Made by a program: the position numbers and the translations under genes. 64,000 nucleotides of DNA from Mesorhizobium sp. SARCC-RB16n (GTDB lineage Bacteria; Pseudomonadota; Alphaproteobacteria; Rhizobiales; Rhizobiaceae), in the NCBI RefSeq assembly GCF_008520305.1, contig NZ_ML703269.1, positions 124,001 to 188,000 on the forward strand. The letters run 5' to 3'. The notes under the pieces were generated by a model. The model saw only the letters and a program-made list of their open reading frames with translations, was not told where the DNA came from and made no database searches. This document shows positions 13,453-24,604 of the stretch, piece after piece. Each line of letters opens with the position of its first letter. Within the stretch, counting starts at the first letter, position 1.

Positions 13453-14475
13453 TCAGGCGCGGGTGCGACGCCGCTCGCGGCGGGCTTCGCTGGTCTCGGC
13501 GGTGTTTGCCGTCGCCACCTTGTTGCGCATCGGGCCAATGCGTTCGACGATTTTTTCGACCGTCGGACGATCCGCCCTTGTGTGGGCGTCGAGCGCCTTG
13601 CGCATCGCGGCAAGATGCTGGAACGAGGTGCCGCAGCAGCCGCCGATGATTTTGGCTCCGCCATCCACGGCGAGCCGGACATAGTCGGCCATCAATTCGG
13701 GCGTGCCGGAATAGTGGATCTCGGTGCCACGGAATTCGGGAATGCCGCAATTGCCCTTGACGATGACGGTCGCCTCCGGCTTCGCCTCGGTCATGTCGAG
13801 CAGCGAGGCCAGGATGTCTGAGGCACCGACGCCGCAATTGGCGCCAACGCCGAGCGGCGCCTGCGAGAGGCCGTCGGCGACGCCGTGGATGTCCTTCGGC
13901 AGCAGGCCCATCATGGTGCGGCCGGCGGTGTCGAACGAGCCGGTATAAGTGTAGGGCAGGCCGACGCGGATGGCGGCTTCGGCAGCGGCGCGGATCTCAT
14001 CGGGTGCCGACATGGTTTCGATCCAGGCGACTTCGGCGCCGCCTTCCTTGAGACCTTCGATCTGCTCGGCAAAGGCGTCAACCGCCTCGTCATAGGTCAT
14101 GGCGCCGAGCGGCACCAGCAACTCGCCGGTCGGACCGACGGAGCCGGCAACGATCACCTTGCGGCCGGCCTTGTCGGCAACGGCCCGCGCAATCTCGGCG
14201 GCCCGCTTGTTCAGCGCATGCACGCGATCCTGCGCATGGTGCAGCTTGAGCCGGTGGCGGGTGCCGCCGAAGGAGTTGGTCAGGATGATGTCGGCGCCGG
14301 CGTCGACGAAATTCTGGTGCAGGCTGGTGATGGTGTCGGGCGCCGTTTCGTTCAGCAGTTCCGGCGCTTCGCCAGCCTCCAGACCCATGGCGAACAAATT
14401 GGTGCCCGTGGCGCCATCGGCCAGCAGCACGCCCTTTTCAGCCAACAGTGCGTCAATGGGGTTGGTCGTCGTCAT
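13453..14475 (-). CDS. Homocysteine S-methyltransferase (single domain, MetH-N/BHMT-like)
   Basis: 340 residues. LLADGATGTNLFAMGLEAGE at the start, TNSFGGTRHRLKL near residue 67, and the zinc thiolates Cys214 (ANCGVG) and Cys280-Cys281 (GGCCGTS) define the homocysteine-binding barrel of MetH and betaine-homocysteine methyltransferase. It has no folate, cobalamin or activation domains. In rhodobacteria, similar single-domain proteins work with separate B12 and folate proteins as a multi-part methionine synthase, so the corrinoid protein at 2378-3076 may be its partner. The C-terminal tail is basic (EARRERRRTR). A SahR-like palindrome lies 34 bases upstream of its start, supporting a role in methionine synthesis. 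Confidence 0.88.
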   Translation of the reverse strand: MTTTNPIDALLAEKGVLLADGATGTNLFAMGLEAGEAPELLNETAPDTITSLHQNFVDAGADIILTNSFGGTRHRLKLHHAQDRVHALNKRAAEIARAVADKAGRKVIVAGSVGPTGELLVPLGAMTYDEAVDAFAEQIEGLKEGGAEVAWIETMSAPDEIRAAAEAAIRVGLPYTYTGSFDTAGRTMMGLLPKDIHGVADGLSQAPLGVGANCGVGASDILASLLDMTEAKPEATVIVKGNCGIPEFRGTEIHYSGTPELMADYVRLAVDGGAKIIGGCCGTSFQHLAAMRKALDAHTRADRPTVEKIVERIGPMRNKVATANTAETSEARRERRRTRA

Positions 14476-14573: not shown

Positions 14574-15176
14574 TCACGATCCTGCGGTGATCTCGACCTC
14601 GATCTCGGTGCAGATCCCGCCATTGGTCGGGTAATAGTCGACCGAGCAGGCGGTGACCACCAGCAGCAGGTCCTGTTCGGCGCGCAATGTCACATTGCCG
14701 CCGGGCGGATTGATCGAGGCCTCGACCACCAACCTGCCGTCCGGCTGCGGCAGGGAGTTCTGGAAAAGGTCGACGGGGTCAGGCACGAAGGGCAGCGATA
14801 TGCCCTCGGCGGCAAGCGCCTGCATCAGATTGTCCCGGCAATTCGGGTGGTTGGGAAAGCCGGCGCGCTCGTAGAGTGCGTTGTCGCAGGCAGGGTAGAG
14901 CATGTCGTGCGGGCCGGGCGATGCGTTTTCGACCAGCGTCAGCATCGGCTTGGCGGCGGCACTGTAGAAGTGGTCGCCAACGCCGGGGAAAAGCCGTTCG
15001 GTGATGTCGCGGGTCTGCGACGTGCTCAGCCAATCGAGCGCTGGTTCGGTGGCGAATGCCCAGAGATCGGCAACCTGCTGGCCTTTAGGGTCGATGATGC
15101 GCACGAGATCGCCGCGCGAAACTCGAATGGAGCGGCCCGACTGGGGAGGGACGACGATACGGCGTGGGTCTGGCAT
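14574..15176 (-). CDS. DUF1989 / urea carboxylase-associated family protein
   Basis: 200 residues. RGDLVRIIDPKGQQVADLWAF near the N-terminus, SQTRDITERLFPGVGDHFYS, the DMLYPACDNALYERAGFPNHPNC cysteine segment and PPGGNVTLRAEQDLL are family hallmarks. Relatives accompany urea carboxylase, and some act as carboxyguanidine deiminase subunits. Here there is one copy, with no urea or guanidine carboxylase nearby, so the substrate is unknown. It lies 83 bases downstream of the XRE regulator gene in the same direction and may be controlled by it. Confidence 0.85.
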   Translation of the reverse strand: MPDPRRIVVPPQSGRSIRVSRGDLVRIIDPKGQQVADLWAFATEPALDWLSTSQTRDITERLFPGVGDHFYSAAAKPMLTLVENASPGPHDMLYPACDNALYERAGFPNHPNCRDNLMQALAAEGISLPFVPDPVDLFQNSLPQPDGRLVVEASINPPGGNVTLRAEQDLLLVVTACSVDYYPTNGGICTEIEVEITAGS

Positions 15177-15259: not shown

Positions 15260-16117
15260 TCAGACAGAGCCTGATGCGAACGACATGCCGGCCAGATTGC
15301 GCGCGAAGCTTGCTGCCTCATGCGGGTTGACGTCGGCGGCGCGGATCAGATTGTCGAAATGCTGGGTCAGCGCCTGGACTGGCTGGGTGGCGTTCAGCAC
15401 GACATACATGTCGCCGACGTAGATGGCTGCGCGATAGGGGCCGAAGATGGTGAGCGGGATGGAATAGCGCATGCGGCCGTCATAGAGGAACAGGCGGAAG
15501 GTCGGGTAGAGGTCGTCGAGCAGCGTCGCCATATGGGCGAGTTGCTGCTGGCGGTCGGCCGCCGGAAAACGATCCCATACGCCAAGGCCGCGGGCAAAGA
15601 TCTCCAGCGTGTGGCGCGGCATGCAGACTTCCATGTCGGTTTCCGGGCGCCGGTTGTATTCGATGCGGTATTGGGTTTCGCTGGCCTGCGCCTGACGGCT
15701 CCTGTTGGTGATGTTGGCCTCGTAGTCGACGAGTGCGTGTGTTCGCAGAAGGTCGGGAATGCCGGCTGGCACATAGCGGATCTTGGTGCCTGCGGCTTCA
15801 GCGAACCATTTGGCGAGCAGCGTGCGGTCGAAGCCGTCGGGCGCTTCCTCGATCTCTAGGCTCTCGCGGATTTCGCCGGTCACGCCTTCGTCCTGGCTGA
15901 GACCAAGCAGCCAATCCAGCGACACCTTGAATTCGGCGGCGATGTTGAGCAGGGTTTCGGCCCGCGGCAGGCGCGTCGAGGCGCCCGACATCAGTTGCGA
16001 CAGCGCCGACCGATCGATGCCGACAGCTGACGCGAAAGCCGACTGGTTGAGGTCGGACCGTGTCAGGAGGAGCTTCAAACGCTCCCGGAAGATCGCTGAG
16101 AGATCGCGTTTGTCCAT
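15260..16117 (-). CDS. XRE-family helix-turn-helix transcriptional regulator
   Basis: 285 residues. An XRE-type helix-turn-helix occupies about residues 10-75 (LTRSDLNQSAFASAVGIDRSALSQLMSG, RAETLLNIAAEFKVSLDWLLG). The remaining 200 residues form an uncharacterised ligand or oligomerisation domain with MEVCMPRHTLEIFARGLGVWD and YSIPLTIFGPYRAAIYVGDMYVVL. A Shine-Dalgarno GGAG precedes the ATG. It is divergent from the desaturase gene across 217 bases, in which short dyads such as AACATTTTGTT (16243-16253) could be operators. Confidence 0.85.
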   Translation of the reverse strand: MDKRDLSAIFRERLKLLLTRSDLNQSAFASAVGIDRSALSQLMSGASTRLPRAETLLNIAAEFKVSLDWLLGLSQDEGVTGEIRESLEIEEAPDGFDRTLLAKWFAEAAGTKIRYVPAGIPDLLRTHALVDYEANITNRSRQAQASETQYRIEYNRRPETDMEVCMPRHTLEIFARGLGVWDRFPAADRQQQLAHMATLLDDLYPTFRLFLYDGRMRYSIPLTIFGPYRAAIYVGDMYVVLNATQPVQALTQHFDNLIRAADVNPHEAASFARNLAGMSFASGSV

Positions 16118-16334: not shown

Positions 16335-17366
16335 GTGGTCGATAGCATGGCAAGCATACCAGGCAAGAGCATCCGTCGAAGCAGCAGACCGGCCATCGAA
16401 TGGCCGACCGTAGTCCTCGCTTTCTTCTGCTACGGCACATGGTTCGCCGCCGGCTTCTTCCTCTGGCCATCCTATCCCATAACAGCACTGATCGTGATGG
16501 CCGTTACGCTGGCACTGCAGTCCTCGATCATGCATGAGGTGCTGCATGGTCACCCGACCCGCAACGCTTTGGTCAACGAAGCCTTTGTCTTCCTGCCGAT
16601 CGGTCTTGCCTGGCCGTTCCGCCGCTTTAAGACCATTCACCTGCGCCACCATGCCGACGAGCGGCTGACCGATCCGCTGGACGATCCCGAGAGCTACTAT
16701 CAGGCGCTCTGGATGCACGAAGAAATGCCGCCGCTGATGAAATTGCTGCTCAAGGTCAACAACACCATGGTTGGTCGCCTGGTGCTTGGCCCGTGGCTGT
16801 CCTGCATCGGCTTCTTCATCGATGACGCCAAGCAGGCGATCGCCGGCGACAGGGCGATCCGCAAGGCCTGGCTGCTGCATGCGATCGGCCTTGCCGTGGT
16901 GCTGCCGGTCGTGCAGTTCGGGTTCGGCATGCCGGTTTGGCTCTATGTGCTGGTGCCGGTGTGGCTCGGCCAGTCGCTGATCTCGATCCGCACCTATGCC
17001 GAGCATCAGTGGTCGGAGCACCCGGAAGGCCGCACGGTGATTGTCGAGCGTTCGCCGCTGTCGTTCCTGTTCCTCAACAACAATCTGCACTTTGTCCATC
17101 ACAAGAGCCCGACCATCGCCTGGTACCGGCTGCCAAAGCTGTTTCGTGACCGGCGCGAAGAATGGCTGCGGATGAACAATGGCTATGCCTACCCGAACTA
17201 TTTCGCGCTGGTCAAAGCCTTTGCCTTCAAGGCCAAGGAGCCGATCGTGCACCCGGTGCTGCGGCGCGCGCCGGAGCCGGGCAGGGCATTCAAGCCGCGC
17301 GTCAGGGCACGCAGCATCAATGGGCTTGGCACCGTGCCGGTCCCGGCCGAGCCACCCAAGGAATAG
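16335..17366 (+). CDS. Membrane fatty acid desaturase family protein
   Basis: 343 residues from GTG 16335 (339 from ATG 16347). Three histidine boxes are visible: HEVLHGH near residue 65, HLRHHADE near 100 and HFVHHKSP near 252, which together bind the di-iron centre. Four or so hydrophobic segments sit between them. The enzyme should insert a double bond or hydroxyl into an acyl or related lipid chain at the inner membrane. GAGGGAC lies 2-4 bases before the GTG and about 15 before the ATG, so neither start is ideal. It is divergent from the XRE gene. Confidence 0.88.
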   Translation: MVDSMASIPGKSIRRSSRPAIEWPTVVLAFFCYGTWFAAGFFLWPSYPITALIVMAVTLALQSSIMHEVLHGHPTRNALVNEAFVFLPIGLAWPFRRFKTIHLRHHADERLTDPLDDPESYYQALWMHEEMPPLMKLLLKVNNTMVGRLVLGPWLSCIGFFIDDAKQAIAGDRAIRKAWLLHAIGLAVVLPVVQFGFGMPVWLYVLVPVWLGQSLISIRTYAEHQWSEHPEGRTVIVERSPLSFLFLNNNLHFVHHKSPTIAWYRLPKLFRDRREEWLRMNNGYAYPNYFALVKAFAFKAKEPIVHPVLRRAPEPGRAFKPRVRARSINGLGTVPVPAEPPKE

Positions 17367-17460
17367 TATCCGCGGACAGCGTGGATACCGTGTCGGCCAA
17401 TTCTGATTGGGCGCCGCGTTTTTGCGATCTTTTCTCCGGACAGGGTGGTTTGATATCGGC

Positions 17461-18288
17461 ATGAGCGAATTGATTGCGGCGTTGCCGATGTACGACTGGC
17501 CCGAAGTGCGCGACGAGGTCGACGCGCAATGGACGTCGTTGCGCGATGCTTTCCGGCGGAAGGGTATCGATGCGCCGCAATCCATCGTGCGCCGCAATGG
17601 CGACCTGCCGCCAGTGCCGGGCGGTATCCACGATGCCCAGGGGGAGCTGATCGCTCCGGATCCGGCAACCTTGCCGCCTGACGAACATGATTTCCACAAG
17701 CTCTGGCTGCATCCGGCGCTGCTGTTCGCGCAGACCTGCTGGGGGCCGATGGAACTCGGCCTCTCCCGGCATGTGCAGGTGGTCGGCCAGCCAAGCTATG
17801 ACGCCTATGAAGGCGGACAAGGCGAATTCTATTCGAGCGCGCTGGTCATGCGGACAGGCGAGGGGACGGAGGTTCGGTCGCCCGCCGACGGTAAGGCCTT
17901 GCTGCCACTCGATCTCATCCGAGGCAGGCGCTTCACCTTCAACAGCCTCGATTCCATGTCGGGCATCATCGCGCTGACGCGCGATCTGGAAGCGGCCGGC
18001 GAAAGCCTCGACATCTTTTCATCGCGCGGCGAAAGCGGCGGCCATCGCGGCTCGATCGTGGCGGTCGCCGAAGGCAAAGCCGATATCGCTGCGATCGATT
18101 GCGAAAGCTGGGCGCTGGCGCAGCGTTTCGAACCGGCGGCGCGCAAGGTCGTGGTCGTCGGCTGGACGGCACGACGCAAAGGCCTGCCTTACATCACCGC
18201 CAGAACGACGCCGGAAAAGACTATGCGCGCGATGCGCGAAGCGCTTGCCGGCCTAGCCGAGCAGCCTCGCATCCAACGGGTAGGTTGA
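17461..18288 (+). CDS. PhnD/SsuA/transferrin-like substrate-binding protein without signal peptide
   Basis: 275 residues resembling the periplasmic phosphonate-binding family: LPMYDWPEVR at the start, FAQTCWGPMELGLSRHVQVVG, YSSALVMR, RRFTFNSLDSMSGIIAL and GKADIAAIDCESWALAQR. The mature fold seems complete, but the protein begins directly with that domain and has no signal sequence from ATG 17461. No ABC permease or ATPase is adjacent. It may therefore be a cytoplasmic binding protein or enzyme. Its last 36 bases overlap the end of the opposite-strand M24 gene. Confidence 0.75.
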   Translation: MSELIAALPMYDWPEVRDEVDAQWTSLRDAFRRKGIDAPQSIVRRNGDLPPVPGGIHDAQGELIAPDPATLPPDEHDFHKLWLHPALLFAQTCWGPMELGLSRHVQVVGQPSYDAYEGGQGEFYSSALVMRTGEGTEVRSPADGKALLPLDLIRGRRFTFNSLDSMSGIIALTRDLEAAGESLDIFSSRGESGGHRGSIVAVAEGKADIAAIDCESWALAQRFEPAARKVVVVGWTARRKGLPYITARTTPEKTMRAMREALAGLAEQPRIQRVG

Positions 18289-19608
18289 AAGTTTTTCGTT
18301 GCCGGTCTCGGTGATCAGGATCTGCTCTTCGATCTTGACACCTTCATGCCCGCCAAGCCGGCCGATGTAGCTCTCCACACACAGCACCATGCCCGGTTCC
18401 AGAACGCCGTCGGGCGTATCGGATGTCCAGTCGCTGGCATGCGGCAAGGTCGGGTATTCGTCGGCCAGGCCGACGCCGTGATAGAGAACGCCGTAGCGAG
18501 TCGGGAAACAGTCGCCTGGCGGCACCGCAGAGCGTTCGACAAGTTCGCGGAACGAGATGCCGGGCCGCATCAAAGCGGTGTTGTGTTCGATCTGATCGAC
18601 TGCAATGCGGAACAGGTTGCGTTGTTCGTTAGTCGGCTTAATATCCCCACACAGCCAGGTGCGTGATAGGTCGGCGCAGAAGCCGTAGGGGCCGATAAGG
18701 TCGGTGTCGAAGGCGACGAGATCGCCGGCCTCGATGATCCGCGACGAGCATTCCTGGAACCATGGGTTGGTGCGCGGTCCCGACGTCAGCAGCCGCGTCT
18801 CGATCCATTCGCCGCCGCGCGCGATGTTGCCGCGATGGAGTTCGGCCCATAACTCGTTCTCGGAGATGCCGGGCTTCAGTGCCTCTTCCATCTCGCCCAT
18901 CGCCGCCTCGCAGGCAACGATGGCGCGGCGCATGGCGAGGATTTCGTCCGCCGATTTGATCAGGCGGGCGTTTTCCATCACCGCTTCGCCATTGCCGATG
19001 GAAACACCAAGCCGCGCCAGTTCCTCGACGCCTTCCGGATTGATGTGGTCGACGGCGATGCGGTTGTTGCCACCGCCATGCTCCCTGACCAGATCGGCGA
19101 TGCCAGCCGCCCAGCGTCGGGCCTTTTGCTCGGTCAGTTCGCCACTATAAAGATACATCCACGACACCGCCGGCCGCACCTTGTCGACGATGCCGGAGTG
19201 GTCGGAAAGATGCTCGCAGGAGAAATAGTCGAACAGCACCACGGGACCTTCGGTGGCGACGAAGCAATGCCGCGTGGGGTTATGCGCGACCCAAAGCTGC
19301 ATGTTTGTCGAGTCGGTCGCATAACGGATGTTGACGGGGTCGTAGAGCAGGGCGCCAGCATAACCACGGCGCTTCAGTTCAGCGCGAATGCGGCCGAGCC
19401 GATATTGCCGCATGGCGGGCAGGTCTGGCGCCGCAATGCCTGCCGCGGCCCACTCGGCTTCGGCTTGCGCGCCATAGCCCAGCACATGCTGATTGAGTGA
19501 CGCCGCCTTCTCACGGGAGGCGTCGCGCAACGCTTCGATCGAGCCCGGCTCGAACGGCATGATCTTGCGATGTCGGCCGAAGCTCCCCTTTGGCGCTTCG
19601 CTGTCCAT
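18253..19608 (-). CDS. M24-fold metalloenzyme closely resembling the DMSP lyase DddP
   Basis: 451 residues with the pita-bread M24 fold. It keeps the M24 metal ligands Asp301, Asp313, His377, Glu412 and Glu427, and also Asp303, Asp383 and Tyr372. As I recall DddP (Asp295, Asp297, Asp307, Tyr366, His371, Asp377, Glu406, Glu421), every residue is shifted by exactly +6, which points to near gap-free alignment. Shared stretches include NIRYATDSTNMQLW, GGEWIETRLL and SGPRTNPWFQEC. DddP cleaves dimethylsulfoniopropionate to acrylate and dimethyl sulfide. A plain Xaa-Pro peptidase or a DddP-like enzyme with another substrate remains possible. It starts 9 bases after the upstream dehydrogenase stop, with GAGG overlapping that stop, so the two are co-translated. 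Confidence 0.8.
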   Translation of the reverse strand: MDSEAPKGSFGRHRKIMPFEPGSIEALRDASREKAASLNQHVLGYGAQAEAEWAAAGIAAPDLPAMRQYRLGRIRAELKRRGYAGALLYDPVNIRYATDSTNMQLWVAHNPTRHCFVATEGPVVLFDYFSCEHLSDHSGIVDKVRPAVSWMYLYSGELTEQKARRWAAGIADLVREHGGGNNRIAVDHINPEGVEELARLGVSIGNGEAVMENARLIKSADEILAMRRAIVACEAAMGEMEEALKPGISENELWAELHRGNIARGGEWIETRLLTSGPRTNPWFQECSSRIIEAGDLVAFDTDLIGPYGFCADLSRTWLCGDIKPTNEQRNLFRIAVDQIEHNTALMRPGISFRELVERSAVPPGDCFPTRYGVLYHGVGLADEYPTLPHASDWTSDTPDGVLEPGMVLCVESYIGRLGGHEGVKIEEQILITETGNEKLSTYPLDARLLG

Positions 19609-19617
19609 GGTGAAACC

Positions 19618-22188
19618 TCAGGTCCGCATCTTCTCGCCGCTCGGGTCGAAGGGCGCTTCGACGTTGATGCGGGCCGGGCGGCGATGCCCGAGGATCTCGA
19701 TCTCGAATAGTCCAGCACGTTCGTCCTCGGCGAGGGCTGCCGGCACATAGCCTTGCGCCATCGATTTCTGCACGTAATGCGCATAACCGCCCGACGTCAC
19801 CCAGCCGACGACGCGCCAGTCGCCGTCGACGATGCCGCGCACTGCGGACGCGCCTTCGGCGGCCTTCGAGCCACGTATTTCCTTGCCTGAAGTGTCGAAG
19901 CGTGGCGCGCCGTAGCCATGTGGCCTTTCCACCGTGCCGTAATCCTTGCTGACCTTGGCCCAGATCGGCTCGTCGCCCATCACGTCGGCATCGGCCGCGT
20001 CTACGATGAAGGAGACGCGGCGCAGTTTTGGCCCTTCCGCCTGTTCCTTGGCGGCGGCTTCACGGCCGATGAAATCGTTCTTCTCGAGCTTGATGAAGCG
20101 ATCCATCGAGCCTTCGAACGGCCCGTAGATCGGCCGCAGCTCGCGGAACCAGGTCGGGAAGTTCTTTTCCAGGCGCATGGAGAGCAGCGCGCGCATGCCG
20201 AAATCGACGATGCCGAATTCCTCGCCGGCGTCCTTGATCGCCTTATAGACAAGGCGCTCATAGGCCGGCGCCATCCAGATCTCGTAGCCGAGGTCACCGG
20301 TGTAGGTGATGCGGTTGACCAGGCAGGGCGCGCCGCCGACGGCCATTTCACGGAAATCCATGAATCGGAAAGCCTTGGTCGAAATGTCGACATCGACCAA
20401 TTTCTGCAAGAGGTCACGCGACCTCGGCCCGGCGATGGAGAGACCGACCAGTGTCTGGTCGAAGCGATGGATGCGGACCGAACCATCCTTGGGCAGATGC
20501 TTTTCGAACCAGCGCATGTGGTATTTCTGCGCGGCCGAAGAACCCCAGATCATAAAGCGGTCTTCACCCGCCTTAGCGATGGTGAAGTCGCCGATCAGCT
20601 TGCCGAATTCGTTGATCATCGGCGTCAGCACGATGCGGCCGGTCTTCGGCATGCGGTTGGTCATCAGTCGGTTGAGGAACTCTTCCGCGCCCGGTCCCGA
20701 CACTTCGTATTTGGCGAAGTTTGCGATCTCGGTGACGCCGACACGCTCGCGCGTGGCGCGCACTTCCTCGCCGATCGGCCCGAAATCGTTGGAGCGGTGG
20801 AAGGAGACAATGTCTTTCGGTTCCTTGCCCTTGGGCGCGAACCATAGCGGGGTCTCGAGGCCCCACGAGTCGCCCATTACGGCATTGTTGGCGAGCATGG
20901 TGTCGTAGAGCGGCGTCGTCTGCGCAGGGCGGGCGGCCGGCAATTCTTCGTTCGGGAAGCGGATCGAGAAGCGGCGCGAATAGTTTTCGCGCACCTTGGC
21001 GTTGGTGTAGCGCAGCCCGGCCCATTCGCCGAAGCGGGCGACATCCATGCCCCAGACGTCGAAGCCCGGGTCGCCGTGGACCATCCAGTTGGACAGAGCG
21101 AGGCCAACGCCGCCGCCCTGGCTGAAGCCGGCCATGACGGCGCAGGCGCACCAGAAATTGGTCAGGCCTTGTACCGGGCCGACCAGAGGGTTGCCGTCGA
21201 GCGCGAAGGTGAAGGGGCCGTTGATGATCTGCTTGATGCCGGCCTTTTCGATGCCGGGGAAATGCTTGAAGCCGATTTCCAGCGACGGCGCGATGCGGTC
21301 GAGATCCGGGGGCAGCAGTTCGTGGCCGAAATCCCACGGCGTGTTGACCGGCGACCACGGCTTGCAGGCCTTCTCATAGGTGCCGAGCAGGATGCCGTTG
21401 CGCTCCTGGCGGGTGTAGATCTCGCCCTTGAAGTCGAGCACGCCGATCATTTCGCGGCCGGTCGACTTGTTGAATTCCTCGACCTCCGGCATCGGCTCGG
21501 TCAGGAGATACATGTGCTCCATGGCCAGCACCGGCAGCTCGACACCGACCATGCGGCCGATCTCGCGCGCCCACAGGCCGCCGCAATTGACGACGTGTTC
21601 GGCGTGAACCGTGCCTTGTTCGGTGACGACGTTCCAGGTGCCGTCCGGCTGCTGTGTCAGGTCGACCACGCGGTTGCGCAGCACGATCTCGGCGCCGAGC
21701 TTTTTCGCCGCCTTGGAATAGGCGATGGTGGTGCCGGAGGGGTCGAGATGGCCTTCGACCGGATCCCACATGGCGCCGACGAAATTGGTTTCGTCCATCA
21801 GCGGGAACATCGCCTTGGCTTCGGACGGCGTGATCAGTTCGGTGTCCATGCCGAGATAGCGGCCTTTGGCGTGGGCCAGCCGCAGGAAGTCCATGCGCTC
21901 GGGCGTATCGGCCATCATGACGCCGCCAGTCAGGTGCAGCGAGCAGGACTGGCCGGAAATCTCCTCGATCTCCTTGTAGAGCTGGACGGTGTAGGCCTGC
22001 AGCTTGGCAACGTTCGGATCGCCGTTCAGCGTATGGAAGCCACCCGCCGCATGCCAGGACGAGCCGGAGGTGAGCTCAGAGCGCTCGATCAGCATAATGT
22101 CGGTCCAACCGGCCTTGGCCAGGTGGTATAGAACCGAGCAGCCAACGACGCCGCCGCCAATGACAACCGCTTTTACATGGGATTTCAT
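19618..22188 (-). CDS. Dimethylglycine/sarcosine dehydrogenase-type FAD oxidoreductase with GcvT domain
   Basis: 856 residues. Residues 1-390 form a D-amino-acid-oxidase-like FAD domain with VIGGGVVGCSV, and SSWHAAGG, where His46 is the residue that binds FAD covalently in dimethylglycine dehydrogenase. Residues 430-840 form a GcvT-type folate domain (GVTEIANFAKYEVSGPGA, GYEIWMAPAY, KNDFIGREA). It should demethylate dimethylglycine, sarcosine or a similar N-methyl compound and hand formaldehyde to tetrahydrofolate. It lies downstream of mttB copy 2 and overlaps the DUF559 gene by ATGA; the DddP-like gene follows. Substrate choice between dimethylglycine and sarcosine cannot be made by eye. 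Confidence 0.88.
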   Translation of the reverse strand: MKSHVKAVVIGGGVVGCSVLYHLAKAGWTDIMLIERSELTSGSSWHAAGGFHTLNGDPNVAKLQAYTVQLYKEIEEISGQSCSLHLTGGVMMADTPERMDFLRLAHAKGRYLGMDTELITPSEAKAMFPLMDETNFVGAMWDPVEGHLDPSGTTIAYSKAAKKLGAEIVLRNRVVDLTQQPDGTWNVVTEQGTVHAEHVVNCGGLWAREIGRMVGVELPVLAMEHMYLLTEPMPEVEEFNKSTGREMIGVLDFKGEIYTRQERNGILLGTYEKACKPWSPVNTPWDFGHELLPPDLDRIAPSLEIGFKHFPGIEKAGIKQIINGPFTFALDGNPLVGPVQGLTNFWCACAVMAGFSQGGGVGLALSNWMVHGDPGFDVWGMDVARFGEWAGLRYTNAKVRENYSRRFSIRFPNEELPAARPAQTTPLYDTMLANNAVMGDSWGLETPLWFAPKGKEPKDIVSFHRSNDFGPIGEEVRATRERVGVTEIANFAKYEVSGPGAEEFLNRLMTNRMPKTGRIVLTPMINEFGKLIGDFTIAKAGEDRFMIWGSSAAQKYHMRWFEKHLPKDGSVRIHRFDQTLVGLSIAGPRSRDLLQKLVDVDISTKAFRFMDFREMAVGGAPCLVNRITYTGDLGYEIWMAPAYERLVYKAIKDAGEEFGIVDFGMRALLSMRLEKNFPTWFRELRPIYGPFEGSMDRFIKLEKNDFIGREAAAKEQAEGPKLRRVSFIVDAADADVMGDEPIWAKVSKDYGTVERPHGYGAPRFDTSGKEIRGSKAAEGASAVRGIVDGDWRVVGWVTSGGYAHYVQKSMAQGYVPAALAEDERAGLFEIEILGHRRPARINVEAPFDPSGEKMRT

Positions 22189-22646
22189 GAAGATAGGTCC
22201 GTTTTTGAAGAGATTGAATCGAATGAGGTGGGCGTGAAAACAAAGCGGAGGTCGGATGCGGCGATGTTTTCGGAGAGCCTGCCATCAAGCGCGGCAAGGA
22301 TGGTTTCACAGACGGAAGTACGATGTTTCAGGACGTCATGGCTCCAAAGGCGCAGGATGGAATAACCTTGGGCGCGCATGAAATCATCGCGGCGACGGTC
22401 ATAGGAACTGTCGGCGTGCTGGGACCCATCAACCTCGACAACGAGCCAATTTTCGCGGCAAGCAAAGTCAGCGAAAAAGGGGCCAATGGAGAGCTGACGG
22501 GTAAAGCGATGACCGCCAAGCTTGCGTACCTTTAGTTCAAGCCACAGCAATGCCTCCGCCTGATTGCCCGCTTGCCGGAGTTTACGCGCTCGCTGTGTTG
22601 TACCAGTTTTGCGGCGGCTGCGCGTTTCATGAATGGCTTCCCCCAC
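22185..22646 (-). CDS. DUF559 domain-containing protein (endonuclease-like fold)
   Basis: About 153 residues from a GTG at 22646. The conserved core runs RARKLRQAGNQAEALLWLELK, HRFTRQLSIGPFFADFACRE, LVVEVDGSQHADS and RRRDDFMRAQGYSILRLWSHDVL, which is DUF559, a family related to Vsr/restriction-type nucleases with the catalytic EVDG region. The GTG start codon lies within the end of the 142-bp palindromic element, so that insertion may have changed the original start. The stop overlaps the dehydrogenase ATG. No partner methylase is near; function is unknown. Confidence 0.7.
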   Translation of the reverse strand: MGEAIHETRSRRKTGTTQRARKLRQAGNQAEALLWLELKVRKLGGHRFTRQLSIGPFFADFACRENWLVVEVDGSQHADSSYDRRRDDFMRAQGYSILRLWSHDVLKHRTSVCETILAALDGRLSENIAASDLRFVFTPTSFDSISSKTDLSS

Positions 22647-22781
22647 TCCGTCGCTGCTTCGCAGCGCCACCTCTCCCCCCTCCGGAAGGAGAGGAAGGGC
22701 GCCGGCTGGAATAAGCTCGCGCCCTTCCTCTACCCCGTCGATCGGGGGAGAGGTGGCGAGCGAAGCTCGCCGGAGTGGGGG
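22640..22781. repeat. 142-bp nested palindromic element (MITE-like) within the mttB-dehydrogenase operon
   Basis: The left arm (22640-22679, starting CCCCCACTCCG) and right arm (22744-22781, ending CGGAGTGGGGG) are near-perfect reverse complements. Each holds its own small hairpin around TTC. The middle holds another dyad (GAGGAAGGGCGC at 22691-22702 against 22719-22730). Such nested palindromes are typical of non-autonomous repeats in rhizobial intergenic regions. Transcription from mttB copy 2 to the dehydrogenase must cross it. Confidence 0.85.
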
Positions 22782-22805
22782 TCGACCGTTCATCAACAAC
22801 ATTGA

Positions 22806-24383
22806 TCAAAAATCAGTCGGCGCGCCGCCTTCGGCCGTGCGCTTCTGGACGAAAGCGTTGAGTTCCTCGCGAATGGCGGGGTCCATGTACGGCTCGTCAT
22901 AGGATGCCAGCCGCTCCTTCCAGACCTTGTTGGCCTTTTCCAGCGCCGTCGGCGATCCGGCTTCGGCCCAGGTCTCGAAATTGCGCCAGTCGGAAAGGAT
23001 CGGCGAATAGAAGGCGGTCTTGTAACGATCCTGCGTGTGCTGGGTGCCGAAGAAATGGCCGCCGGGGCCAACCGACTGGATGGCATCGAAGCCGAGCGCC
23101 TCTTCGGAGAGGTCGAGCGGGGTCAGGAATTCGGCCACCATCTGCAAGAGGTCGATGTCCAGAATGGTCTTCTCGTAGGAGCAGCGCAGACCGCCCTCGA
23201 GCCATCCGGCCGCATGCATCATCAGATTGCCGCCACCTTGCACCGCGCCCCACAGCGAGAACACGCTTTCATAGGCGGCCTGCGCGTCGACCGTGTTGGC
23301 GGCGCAGGTGTTTGAGGTGCGGTAGGGGATGTTGTAGCGGCGAGCAAGCTGGCCACCGACGAGCTGCGCCTTCATGTATTCGGGCGTGCCGAAGGCCGGT
23401 GAACCGGATTTCATGTCGACATTGGAGGTGAAGCCGCCATAGCCGACCGGCGCGCCCTTCCTGACCATCTGGGCGAATGCAATGCCGGAGAGCGCTTCGG
23501 CGTTCTGCTGCACCAGCGCACCGGCAATGGTTACCGGGGCCATGGCGCCCGATAACGTGAATGGCGTGACGATGACGACCTGGCCCTTGCTCGACATCTG
23601 GATGATGCCTTCCATCATAGGCACGTCGAGCTTGAGCGGCGAATTGGTGTTGATGATGGTGAAGACGGACGGCTCCGCCAGCATCTGCTCATGGCTGATG
23701 CCGCGCGCGATGCGCGTGATCTCGATGCCATCGACATTGCGCTCCTTGCCGAGCGAATAGATGTGGAACACCTTGTCGGTCAGCGTCGCGAGATCGCGGA
23801 CGCATTCGAGGTGGCGCACGGACGGATGGATGTCGGTCGGTTCGACCGGATAGCCGCCGGTGCAATTCAGGATGTTGTGCATCTGGGCCAGCCGCAGGAA
23901 GTTGCGGTAGTCCGCCTGGTTGCCCGGCCGGCGGCCACGATCGATGTCGGAGCAATTGGGTGCCGACGCCATCATCGAGATGATCAGATTGTTGCCGCCG
24001 AAGCGCACATTGTGCGCGGGATTGCGGGCATGGATGGTGAATTCGGACGGGCAGTTCGACACCAGTTCGAGGATCATGTCGCTGTCGAAGCGCACGCGCT
24101 CCGAGCCCTCGCGCACATCGGCGCCATGCGCCTTCATGATGCGGCGGGCTTCGTCGTGCAGAACGTCGACACCGATTTCCCTGAGCACGCGCAGGGAGGC
24201 GAGGTGGATCGATTCCAACTCATCCTCGGACACCAGCCTGGTCGGCGTCAGCGGATTTTTCAGCTGGCGGAAAGCCGGCTGCTCGAACGCGGCCGAGCCG
24301 CCGGCGCGCTTTCCGGCGCGACCCCCACGGCGGGCACGATCGGTTGCCGGAGCCGGTTCGGCGAGTTGAAGGGCGGCGGTCAT
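22806..24383 (-). CDS. Trimethylamine methyltransferase (MttB) family protein, non-pyrrolysine type (copy 2)
   Basis: 525 residues, same size and fold as the copy at 3367-4941. After an Arg/Gly/Ala-rich tail it shows SEDELESIHLASLRVLREIGV, NTNSPLKLDVPMMEG, IVTPFTLSGAMAPVTIAGAL, HAAGWLEGGLRCSYEK and GPGGHFFGTQHTQ. No amber codon interrupts the frame. It should demethylate a quaternary or tertiary amine and methylate a corrinoid protein. ATG 24383 follows GAGG. It heads the minus-strand set with DUF559, dehydrogenase and DddP-like genes, so the product of demethylation could be the substrate of the dehydrogenase, for example betaine to dimethylglycine. Confidence 0.9.
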   Translation of the reverse strand: MTAALQLAEPAPATDRARRGGRAGKRAGGSAAFEQPAFRQLKNPLTPTRLVSEDELESIHLASLRVLREIGVDVLHDEARRIMKAHGADVREGSERVRFDSDMILELVSNCPSEFTIHARNPAHNVRFGGNNLIISMMASAPNCSDIDRGRRPGNQADYRNFLRLAQMHNILNCTGGYPVEPTDIHPSVRHLECVRDLATLTDKVFHIYSLGKERNVDGIEITRIARGISHEQMLAEPSVFTIINTNSPLKLDVPMMEGIIQMSSKGQVVIVTPFTLSGAMAPVTIAGALVQQNAEALSGIAFAQMVRKGAPVGYGGFTSNVDMKSGSPAFGTPEYMKAQLVGGQLARRYNIPYRTSNTCAANTVDAQAAYESVFSLWGAVQGGGNLMMHAAGWLEGGLRCSYEKTILDIDLLQMVAEFLTPLDLSEEALGFDAIQSVGPGGHFFGTQHTQDRYKTAFYSPILSDWRNFETWAEAGSPTALEKANKVWKERLASYDEPYMDPAIREELNAFVQKRTAEGGAPTDF

Positions 24384-24604
24384 GGGGAGCCTCGTACGAT
24401 GCGAAAGTGGGCGGCATAATGGACCGGCGGCTGTCCGGCCATTGCGGAGGCGGCGACCACTAGAGCGAGGGAAGCGACATGCCCGAACGGCAGCCGCATG
24501 GCGGCGACCCGCCTTGTCACCGTGACGCGCCAGCAAGTGCTGAGCATGATCGGGGCGAATGTTGCCGACGGCGCGCACGTTACAGTACCGTCTTTTACTT
24601 CTGA

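Follow-up and report, generated by a model that had tools for sequence, protein, structure and literature searches.

A DddP-superfamily M24 metalloenzyme outside DddP proper, encoded in a betaine demethylation-type gene neighbourhood of Mesorhizobium

Which substrate is served by an enzyme that has the residues of a marine dimethylsulfoniopropionate (DMSP) lyase, when its gene lies in a soil symbiont next to genes for N-methyl catabolism? The question is raised by a gene of Mesorhizobium sp. SARCC-RB16n within a stretch of 64,000 nucleotides (contig NZ_ML703269.1, positions 124,001 to 188,000), here called the window, to which all unprefixed coordinates refer. The original prediction offered two readings of the gene product, P0001: that it cleaves DMSP, or that it is DddP-like but acts on a new substrate. 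Here, we favour the latter and find the former unsupported. P0001 belongs to the DddP superfamily but is not DddP proper, and its family position and gene neighbours together suggest that it most likely serves the pathway from glycine betaine via dimethylglycine to sarcosine, a reading to which we give a probability of roughly 0.6. Published work is cited by PMC number.

18253..19608, minus strand: P0001, DddP-superfamily M24 metalloenzyme of 451 amino acids, assigned from profile scores, tree, residues and fold

The open reading frame (ORF), for which no strand had been given, is real and runs from 19608 down to 18253. By its match to Pfam PF00557 (109.5 bits against a gathering cut-off of 23), P0001 falls in the M24 (pita-bread) superfamily. 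It combines the metal ligands with the equivalents of Tyr366 and Asp377 and the TNPWFQE and YATD motifs, which places it in the DddP superfamily. On the DddP equivalog model of NCBIfam (NF043017) it reaches 482.1 bits, under the cut-off of 600, and thus falls outside DddP proper; relatives from Ahrensia, Kiloniella and Labrenzia (L041, L047, L050) score 506, 516 and 516 bits, and an Oceanimonas protein (L071) passes with 630 bits. A profile made from eight DddP-like rows gives members of the superfamily at least 399 bits and other M24 proteins in the fetched loci at most 68 bits, one 107-residue fragment being the exception at 125 bits. Across 385 alphaproteobacterial genomes, NF043017 has a match in 136 and a match above the cut-off in 12, with many scores between about 190 and 590 and the next matches listed at 119 and below. 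The score gaps in both profiles indicate that the DddP superfamily is sharply bounded and that DddP, as delimited by the curated cut-off, is a small part of it. The closest named relatives among the matches listed come from Mesorhizobium, Aminobacter and rhizobial metagenome-assembled genomes (MAGs), with 82-94% identity (at least 593 stretches with at least 585 relatives, of which the best 80 were kept). One Mesorhizobium genome (G001), searched whole, holds a single gene of the superfamily, of the same clade (B, see below) as P0001. Elsewhere in the Alphaproteobacteria, two or more such genes lie close together in each of four loci (L180, L185, L191, L193), and the 385-genome scan gave as many as 27 loose first-look candidates in a genome, a hint that the family has expanded.

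A first tree has 116 rows, those left of 185 when sequences were thinned at 83% identity, among them six M24 outgroup rows. DddP proper forms clade A (31 rows, support 100), which contains the solved DMSP lyase RlDddP, Paracoccus, an Oceanimonas type, Hoeflea and others. P0001 is not within it; it lies in clade B (13 rows, support 83) together with Ahrensia, Roseibium/Labrenzia, Kiloniella and a few MAGs. Clade C has 7 rows, the large clade D, mainly of a short form, has 56 (support 98), and 3 rows (X) stand outside the four groups. A more careful tree of 89 rows, without the 6 outgroup rows and 21 hand-chosen others and hence without an outgroup, again has DddP proper as a clade (29 rows, 100/99) with the window protein outside, paired with Mesorhizobium sp. 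J18 (100/94). A topology with this pair nested in the inner part of the DddP clade (21 rows) is worse by 105.7 log-likelihood units and is rejected by the approximately unbiased (AU) test, run on 66 rows (p-AU 0.00013). The sequences of the fungal DddP homologue, DddP2 and HWgs001 are not among the rows of these trees. The tree thus keeps P0001 apart from the prolidases, in line with a DddP-like enzyme, yet outside the DddP clade, in a neighbouring lineage of the same superfamily.

The starting point for a lyase had been eight DddP residues at a constant offset of +6, and all eight hold on the chain numbering of RlDddP (D301=D295, D303=D297, D313=D307, Y372=Y366, H377=H371, D383=D377, E412=E406 and E427=E421), in agreement with the numbers in PMC4108388. 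Two long stretches had been called atypical of other M24 proteins; allowing at most 3 mismatches, each is found in 0/6 other M24 proteins of one Mesorhizobium genome, and both are present in 54/54 clade-B rows (the window and duplicate fetches counted in). The step from this residue set to a DMSP lyase fails, as all eight residues are also invariant, or nearly so, outside DddP proper. They are invariant in clades A (31/31), B (13/13) and C (7/7) and in X (3/3), and in clade D all are invariant except Y372 (55/56) and D383 (45/56); of the aromatic residues, clade D has Trp106 in 47/56 and Trp283 in 56/56. Conservation across all groups, including D, means that the residue set marks the superfamily and not the substrate, and many clade-D members that carry it adjoin betaine demethylases, so that it does not imply a DMSP lyase. 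Other positions separate A from B (DddP/window numbering: F39/E50, F155/W166, C217/R228, G282/S288, H333/Q339). Position 166 is F in 31/31 rows of A and W in 13/13 of B, position 288 is G in 31/31 and S in 13/13, position 228 is C in 29/31 and R in 12/13, and position 339 is H in 26/31 and Q in 12/13. At four near-fixed positions of DddP proper (F155, C217, G282, H333), therefore, P0001 differs, and at DddP positions 155, 282 and 333 clade D mostly agrees with B. In one member of the superfamily, on an Ensifer adhaerens plasmid (L003, 7947-9158), Asn stands at both the Tyr366 and the Asp377 position, and both proposed catalytic residues are lost.

The gene neighbourhood consists of the following features:

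19618..22188, minus strand: FAD oxidoreductase fused to a GcvT domain, dimethylglycine-dehydrogenase-like, 856 amino acids (Pfam DAO, FAO_M, GCV_T, GCV_T_C)
22185..22802, minus strand: small ORF of 205 amino acids between the MttB and dehydrogenase genes, present in some relatives only
22806..24578, minus strand: MttB-family methyltransferase (Pfam MTTB, whole profile)
17407..18288, plus strand: PhnD-like substrate-binding-type protein (Pfam Phosphonate-bd), convergent with the M24 gene and overlapping its end
16335..17366, plus strand: membrane oxygenase of the fatty-acid-desaturase family (Pfam-type domain match)
15260..16117, minus strand: helix-turn-helix (XRE-type) regulator (domain match), in 8/19 clade-B loci
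14574..15176, minus strand: DUF1989 protein, with the same domain as the N-terminal part of trimethylamine N-oxide demethylase
13453..14475, minus strand: betaine--homocysteine S-methyltransferase (NF005718, 572 bits, cut-off 338)

On the minus strand the order is MttB, small ORF, dehydrogenase and M24, with successive gaps of 3, -4 and 9 bases; the 9 bases separate the dehydrogenase stop from the M24 start codon, and the M24 gene is the last of this same-strand run. The best relative of the FAD-GcvT protein in the PDB is dimethylglycine dehydrogenase (571 bits), the next type being dimethylglycine oxidase (275 bits). The MttB reading frame is open throughout, with no in-frame amber codon, and its product reaches 290 of 525 bits on the pyrrolysine trimethylamine model. 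Against the PDB it scores 359 bits with 4yyc (a 'putative trimethylamine methyltransferase'), 322 with 2qne, 321 with 9yce and 164 with trimethylamine methyltransferase; 9yce, a glycine betaine methyltransferase, is thus among the nearest solved proteins. These scores and the conserved synteny bear out the neighbouring N-methyl catabolism genes noted before, and specify them as a glycine betaine demethylation-type neighbourhood. The 205-amino-acid ORF, which we take to resemble a DUF559-type protein, is found for example in L010, L016, L017, L020 and L040 and not in L012-L014, a variable insertion inside a kept run.

Conservation of this neighbourhood was followed in 112 loci (31 A, 19 B, 8 C, 50 D, 4 X), thinned at 85% identity, with a flank of 6 kb required and covering 116 of 165 family ORFs; antisense clusters in the locus maps were marked by eye, for the maps only. 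MttB and the dimethylglycine dehydrogenase both lie within 9 kb of the M24 gene in 16/19 B loci, compared to 1/31 in A, 3/8 in C, 10/50 in D and 0/4 in X. Both partners are present in 34/34 loci of Mesorhizobium, Aminobacter and rhizobial MAGs (L009-L040, L065, L077), and also in loci of Ahrensia, Roseibium/Labrenzia, Kiloniella and gammaproteobacterial MAGs. One Mesorhizobium genome of 8.4 Mb has five MttB and six FAO_M genes, and eight genomes have 0-11 and 4-8, respectively; from copy number and genome size in these eight, the chance that either kind of gene lies near is calculated as about 1-7%. With such low copy numbers, chance adjacency to the M24 gene is unlikely. Betaine--homocysteine S-methyltransferase, about 4 kb from the M24 gene in the window, occurs in 12/19 B and 0/31 A loci. 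The desaturase-family oxygenase and the PhnD-like protein form a plus-strand pair (16335-18288) that is kept near the M24 gene in clade B, the PhnD-like gene within 9 kb in 14/19 B and 0/31 A loci and the desaturase-family gene in 13/19 and 0/31. A stand-alone DUF1989 gene was seen in only L009, L021 and L034 among 88 loci searched.

In clade D the partner changes. In Rhizobium sp. TAL182, R. leguminosarum WSM1325 and Paraburkholderia the M24 gene follows genes for a GbcA/GbcB-like Rieske oxygenase and reductase. On the GbcA model (cut-off 670) these Rieske proteins reach no more than 389-414 bits; the scan of reductases covered that of TAL182. In a further genome, G008, the M24 gene comes 52 bases after a GbcA-like gene. 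Other D loci have the M24 gene beside MttB or the dehydrogenase, and in 29/50 none of the three partners was found. With the Rieske pair in D and MttB and dehydrogenase in B, two unrelated routes of betaine demethylation share an M24 partner, and no other observation hints as strongly at nitrogen betaines as the substrate class in common.

To the observed fold, residues, placement, gene run and conserved neighbourhood of P0001 a mechanism may be added, in which the metal, the class of substrate, the chemistry of the base and the sequence of steps are inferred by analogy with DddP. A dimer would bind two metal ions via D301, D303, D313, H377, E412 and E427, and the carboxylate of the substrate would sit on the metals. 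An aromatic cage of W106, Y372 and perhaps W283 may hold a trimethylammonium group in place of the sulfonium head, and D383, a histidine in some M24 peptidases, could act as general base. A bond to the cationic part of a betaine-type substrate would then be cleaved, and the product would feed the demethylases. Slow cleavage of DMSP as a side reaction is quite possible.

Several points weigh against a role of P0001 in betaine catabolism. No reaction on the way from glycine betaine to sarcosine is known to us to require an M24 enzyme, and no published assay of a clade-B enzyme was found in the literature. Clade B itself is weakly supported (83, unstarred, in the 116-row tree; unresolved in the 89-row tree), and the AU test does not reject it as one clade (p=0.39). 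Fisher tests of B against A loci (3e-9 for MttB and 7e-7 for the dehydrogenase) favour the betaine reading, and so do M24 distances, which track dehydrogenase distances (r=0.66, 36 loci) and MttB distances (r=0.55, 33 loci), but related loci are not independent and neither the Fisher nor the Mantel values correct for shared ancestry. Three of the 19 B loci (L042, L052, L056) are without both partners. Conversely, four clade-A loci (L069, L212, L216, L233) lie near a dehydrogenase gene, and in L233 (4236-8041) a dimethylglycine-dehydrogenase-like gene and a canonical DddP gene, oriented alike, overlap each other, so that context is no clean sorter of functions. Missing acuI says little as well, since functional dddP without linked acuI is described for Roseobacters (PMC3338564). 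Finally, a fungal homologue that is 32% identical to RdDddP is reported to make dimethyl sulfide (DMS) (PMC4108388, which puts the two in one monophyletic clade), and a distinct Oceanimonas type, DddP2, and its relative from a scallop symbiont (HWgs001) are active (PMC10989825). With DMSP lyases among such distant homologues, cleavage of DMSP may be a common side activity.

That P0001 itself is a true lyase of DMSP or dimethylsulfoxonium propionate (DMSOP), by which the symbiont would turn DMSP from plants or algae into DMS and acrylate, is nevertheless improbable judged from the sequences, given its position outside the DddP clade, its score below the DddP cut-off and its betaine demethylation neighbours. 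AcuI-like genes lie near 6/31 A loci and 0 of the other 81, and AcuI is absent within 9 kb in all 19 B loci. Five of the six were scanned, and all lie above the cut-off of TIGR02823 (acrylyl-CoA reductase family) and below that of the AcuI equivalog NF051456; their place near A loci agrees with acuI upstream of dddP in Puniceispirillum (PMC3338564). The cloned, active lyase of Ahrensia LZD062 is DddL (PMC6309047), and a dddL mutant of L. aggregata loses about 97% of DMSOP lyase activity (PMC10686828). A full-length match of 59-63% is present in 20/45 genomes of the genus of Labrenzia sp. DG1229 (G409), a count for the genus and not for the strain of the mutant. Ahrensia as proof of DMS from clade B was dropped for the same DddL result, which concerns LZD062 and not the faster isolate LZD051. 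Also dropped was the second Oceanimonas copy (L134) as the active DddP2, as it has Val at the Asp377 position. As a negative host R. leguminosarum is weak: according to PMC10686828 the Rhizobium host cannot catabolise DMSOP, and a clade-D gene is known from plasmids of the species (92% identity between the copy of WSM1325 and L004 of clade D), which may or may not be present and expressed in that very strain. Beta-alanine betaine was considered as a substrate by analogy to DMSP, and nothing at the locus supports release of trimethylamine as a purpose.

Instead of an eliminating lyase, P0001 could be a hydrolase of an amide or other conjugate, releasing glycine betaine, dimethylglycine or sarcosine; this is less improbable than a DMSP lyase but still unlikely. 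A hydrolase would fit the fold family, which includes creatinase and the ectoine hydrolase DoeA, and the neighbouring enzyme families, which yield sarcosine and dimethylglycine. A GcvT gene (cluster c55) lies near the M24 gene in L044, L046 and L054, beyond which L046 has ORFs that we presume to resemble GcvH and GcvP, and the Kiloniella cluster has a further gene of peptidase fold (M19). Creatinase (24-28 bits) and DoeA (54.5 bits on NF038259, cut-off 575, and 21.3 on TIGR02993, cut-off 613) are distant from P0001, however, and the superfamily has Asp383 where 3/6 M24 proteins of the outgroup carry His. An ordinary Xaa-Pro dipeptidase or aminopeptidase is hardly credible: many relatives are annotated in RefSeq as 'Xaa-Pro peptidase family protein', and fold and metal ligands agree, but RlDddP had no measurable activity on Val-Pro (PMC5395565), and prolidase models give P0001 at most 60 bits against cut-offs of 393-630. 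The gap between the superfamily and other M24 proteins in the DddP-like profile argues likewise, as do D303, D383 and W283, whose equivalents occur in 0/6 other M24 proteins, and Y372 (1/6). P0001 retains the Tyr and Asp of DddP and the Trp at 95, presumably the number of its sulfonium-binding tryptophan. PMC5395565, too, names a tryptophan. Low model scores and residue differences thus led us to discard prolidase, creatinase and ectoine hydrolase as identities of P0001.

Beyond the role in glycine betaine catabolism that we favour for P0001, one may tentatively ask whether the DddP superfamily is, at its root, a family of metalloenzymes that cleave quaternary-ammonium compounds (betaines). 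Its members would carry out a so far overlooked step in the breakdown of glycine betaine, with corrinoid, flavin or Rieske demethylases as partners. Marine DddP could then be a branch that re-uses the cation cage for DMSP, which would account for its millimolar Michaelis constant. This possibility, which we consider less likely than not, gives DddP a testable origin: an enzyme of betaine operons that has a cation cage and uses an Asp as base. It would also matter for environmental surveys, in which dddP is the DMSP lyase gene counted most often. In sediments of the Bohai and Yellow Seas, dddP was predicted in 37.8% of bacteria on average, with Pseudomonas and Mesorhizobium listed among the carriers (PMC7039863). 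In the one Mesorhizobium genome searched whole, the sole gene of the superfamily is of clade B. If clade B and the wider D lineages act on nitrogen betaines, dddP counts overstate the potential for DMS, and genes of the clade-B type should not be counted as DMS makers without an assay.

Compared to known systems, P0001 belongs to a lineage separate from that of the marine DMSP lyase DddP (RlDddP 4rzy/4s00/4s01, RdDddP 4b28): with W166, R228, S288 and Q339 it departs from the F, C, G and H of most DddP proper, and its neighbours are betaine demethylases, with no gene for acrylate found in the vicinity. Ectoine hydrolase (DoeA/EutD) and creatinase, which act on osmolyte or N-methyl substrates, have the same two-domain fold but are 16-20% identical, with very low model and sequence scores. 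The neighbours of P0001 belong to the families of glycine betaine catabolism (MtgB-type methyltransferase, dimethylglycine dehydrogenase, betaine--homocysteine S-methyltransferase), systems from which the locus differs in its M24 partner, as the literature search found no paper on an M24 enzyme in glycine betaine catabolic operons; an mttB of Mesorhizobium alhagi is salt-induced (PMC4302635), and a link to the locus of P0001 could not be made. The M24 proteins of Rhizobium and Paraburkholderia plasmids, annotated as Xaa-Pro peptidases, differ from P0001 in belonging to clade D, in their short form without the appendix and in their GbcA/GbcB-like Rieske partner, and are about 47-49% identical to it over the aligned part, but share with it both the residues of the superfamily and neighbours for betaine demethylation.
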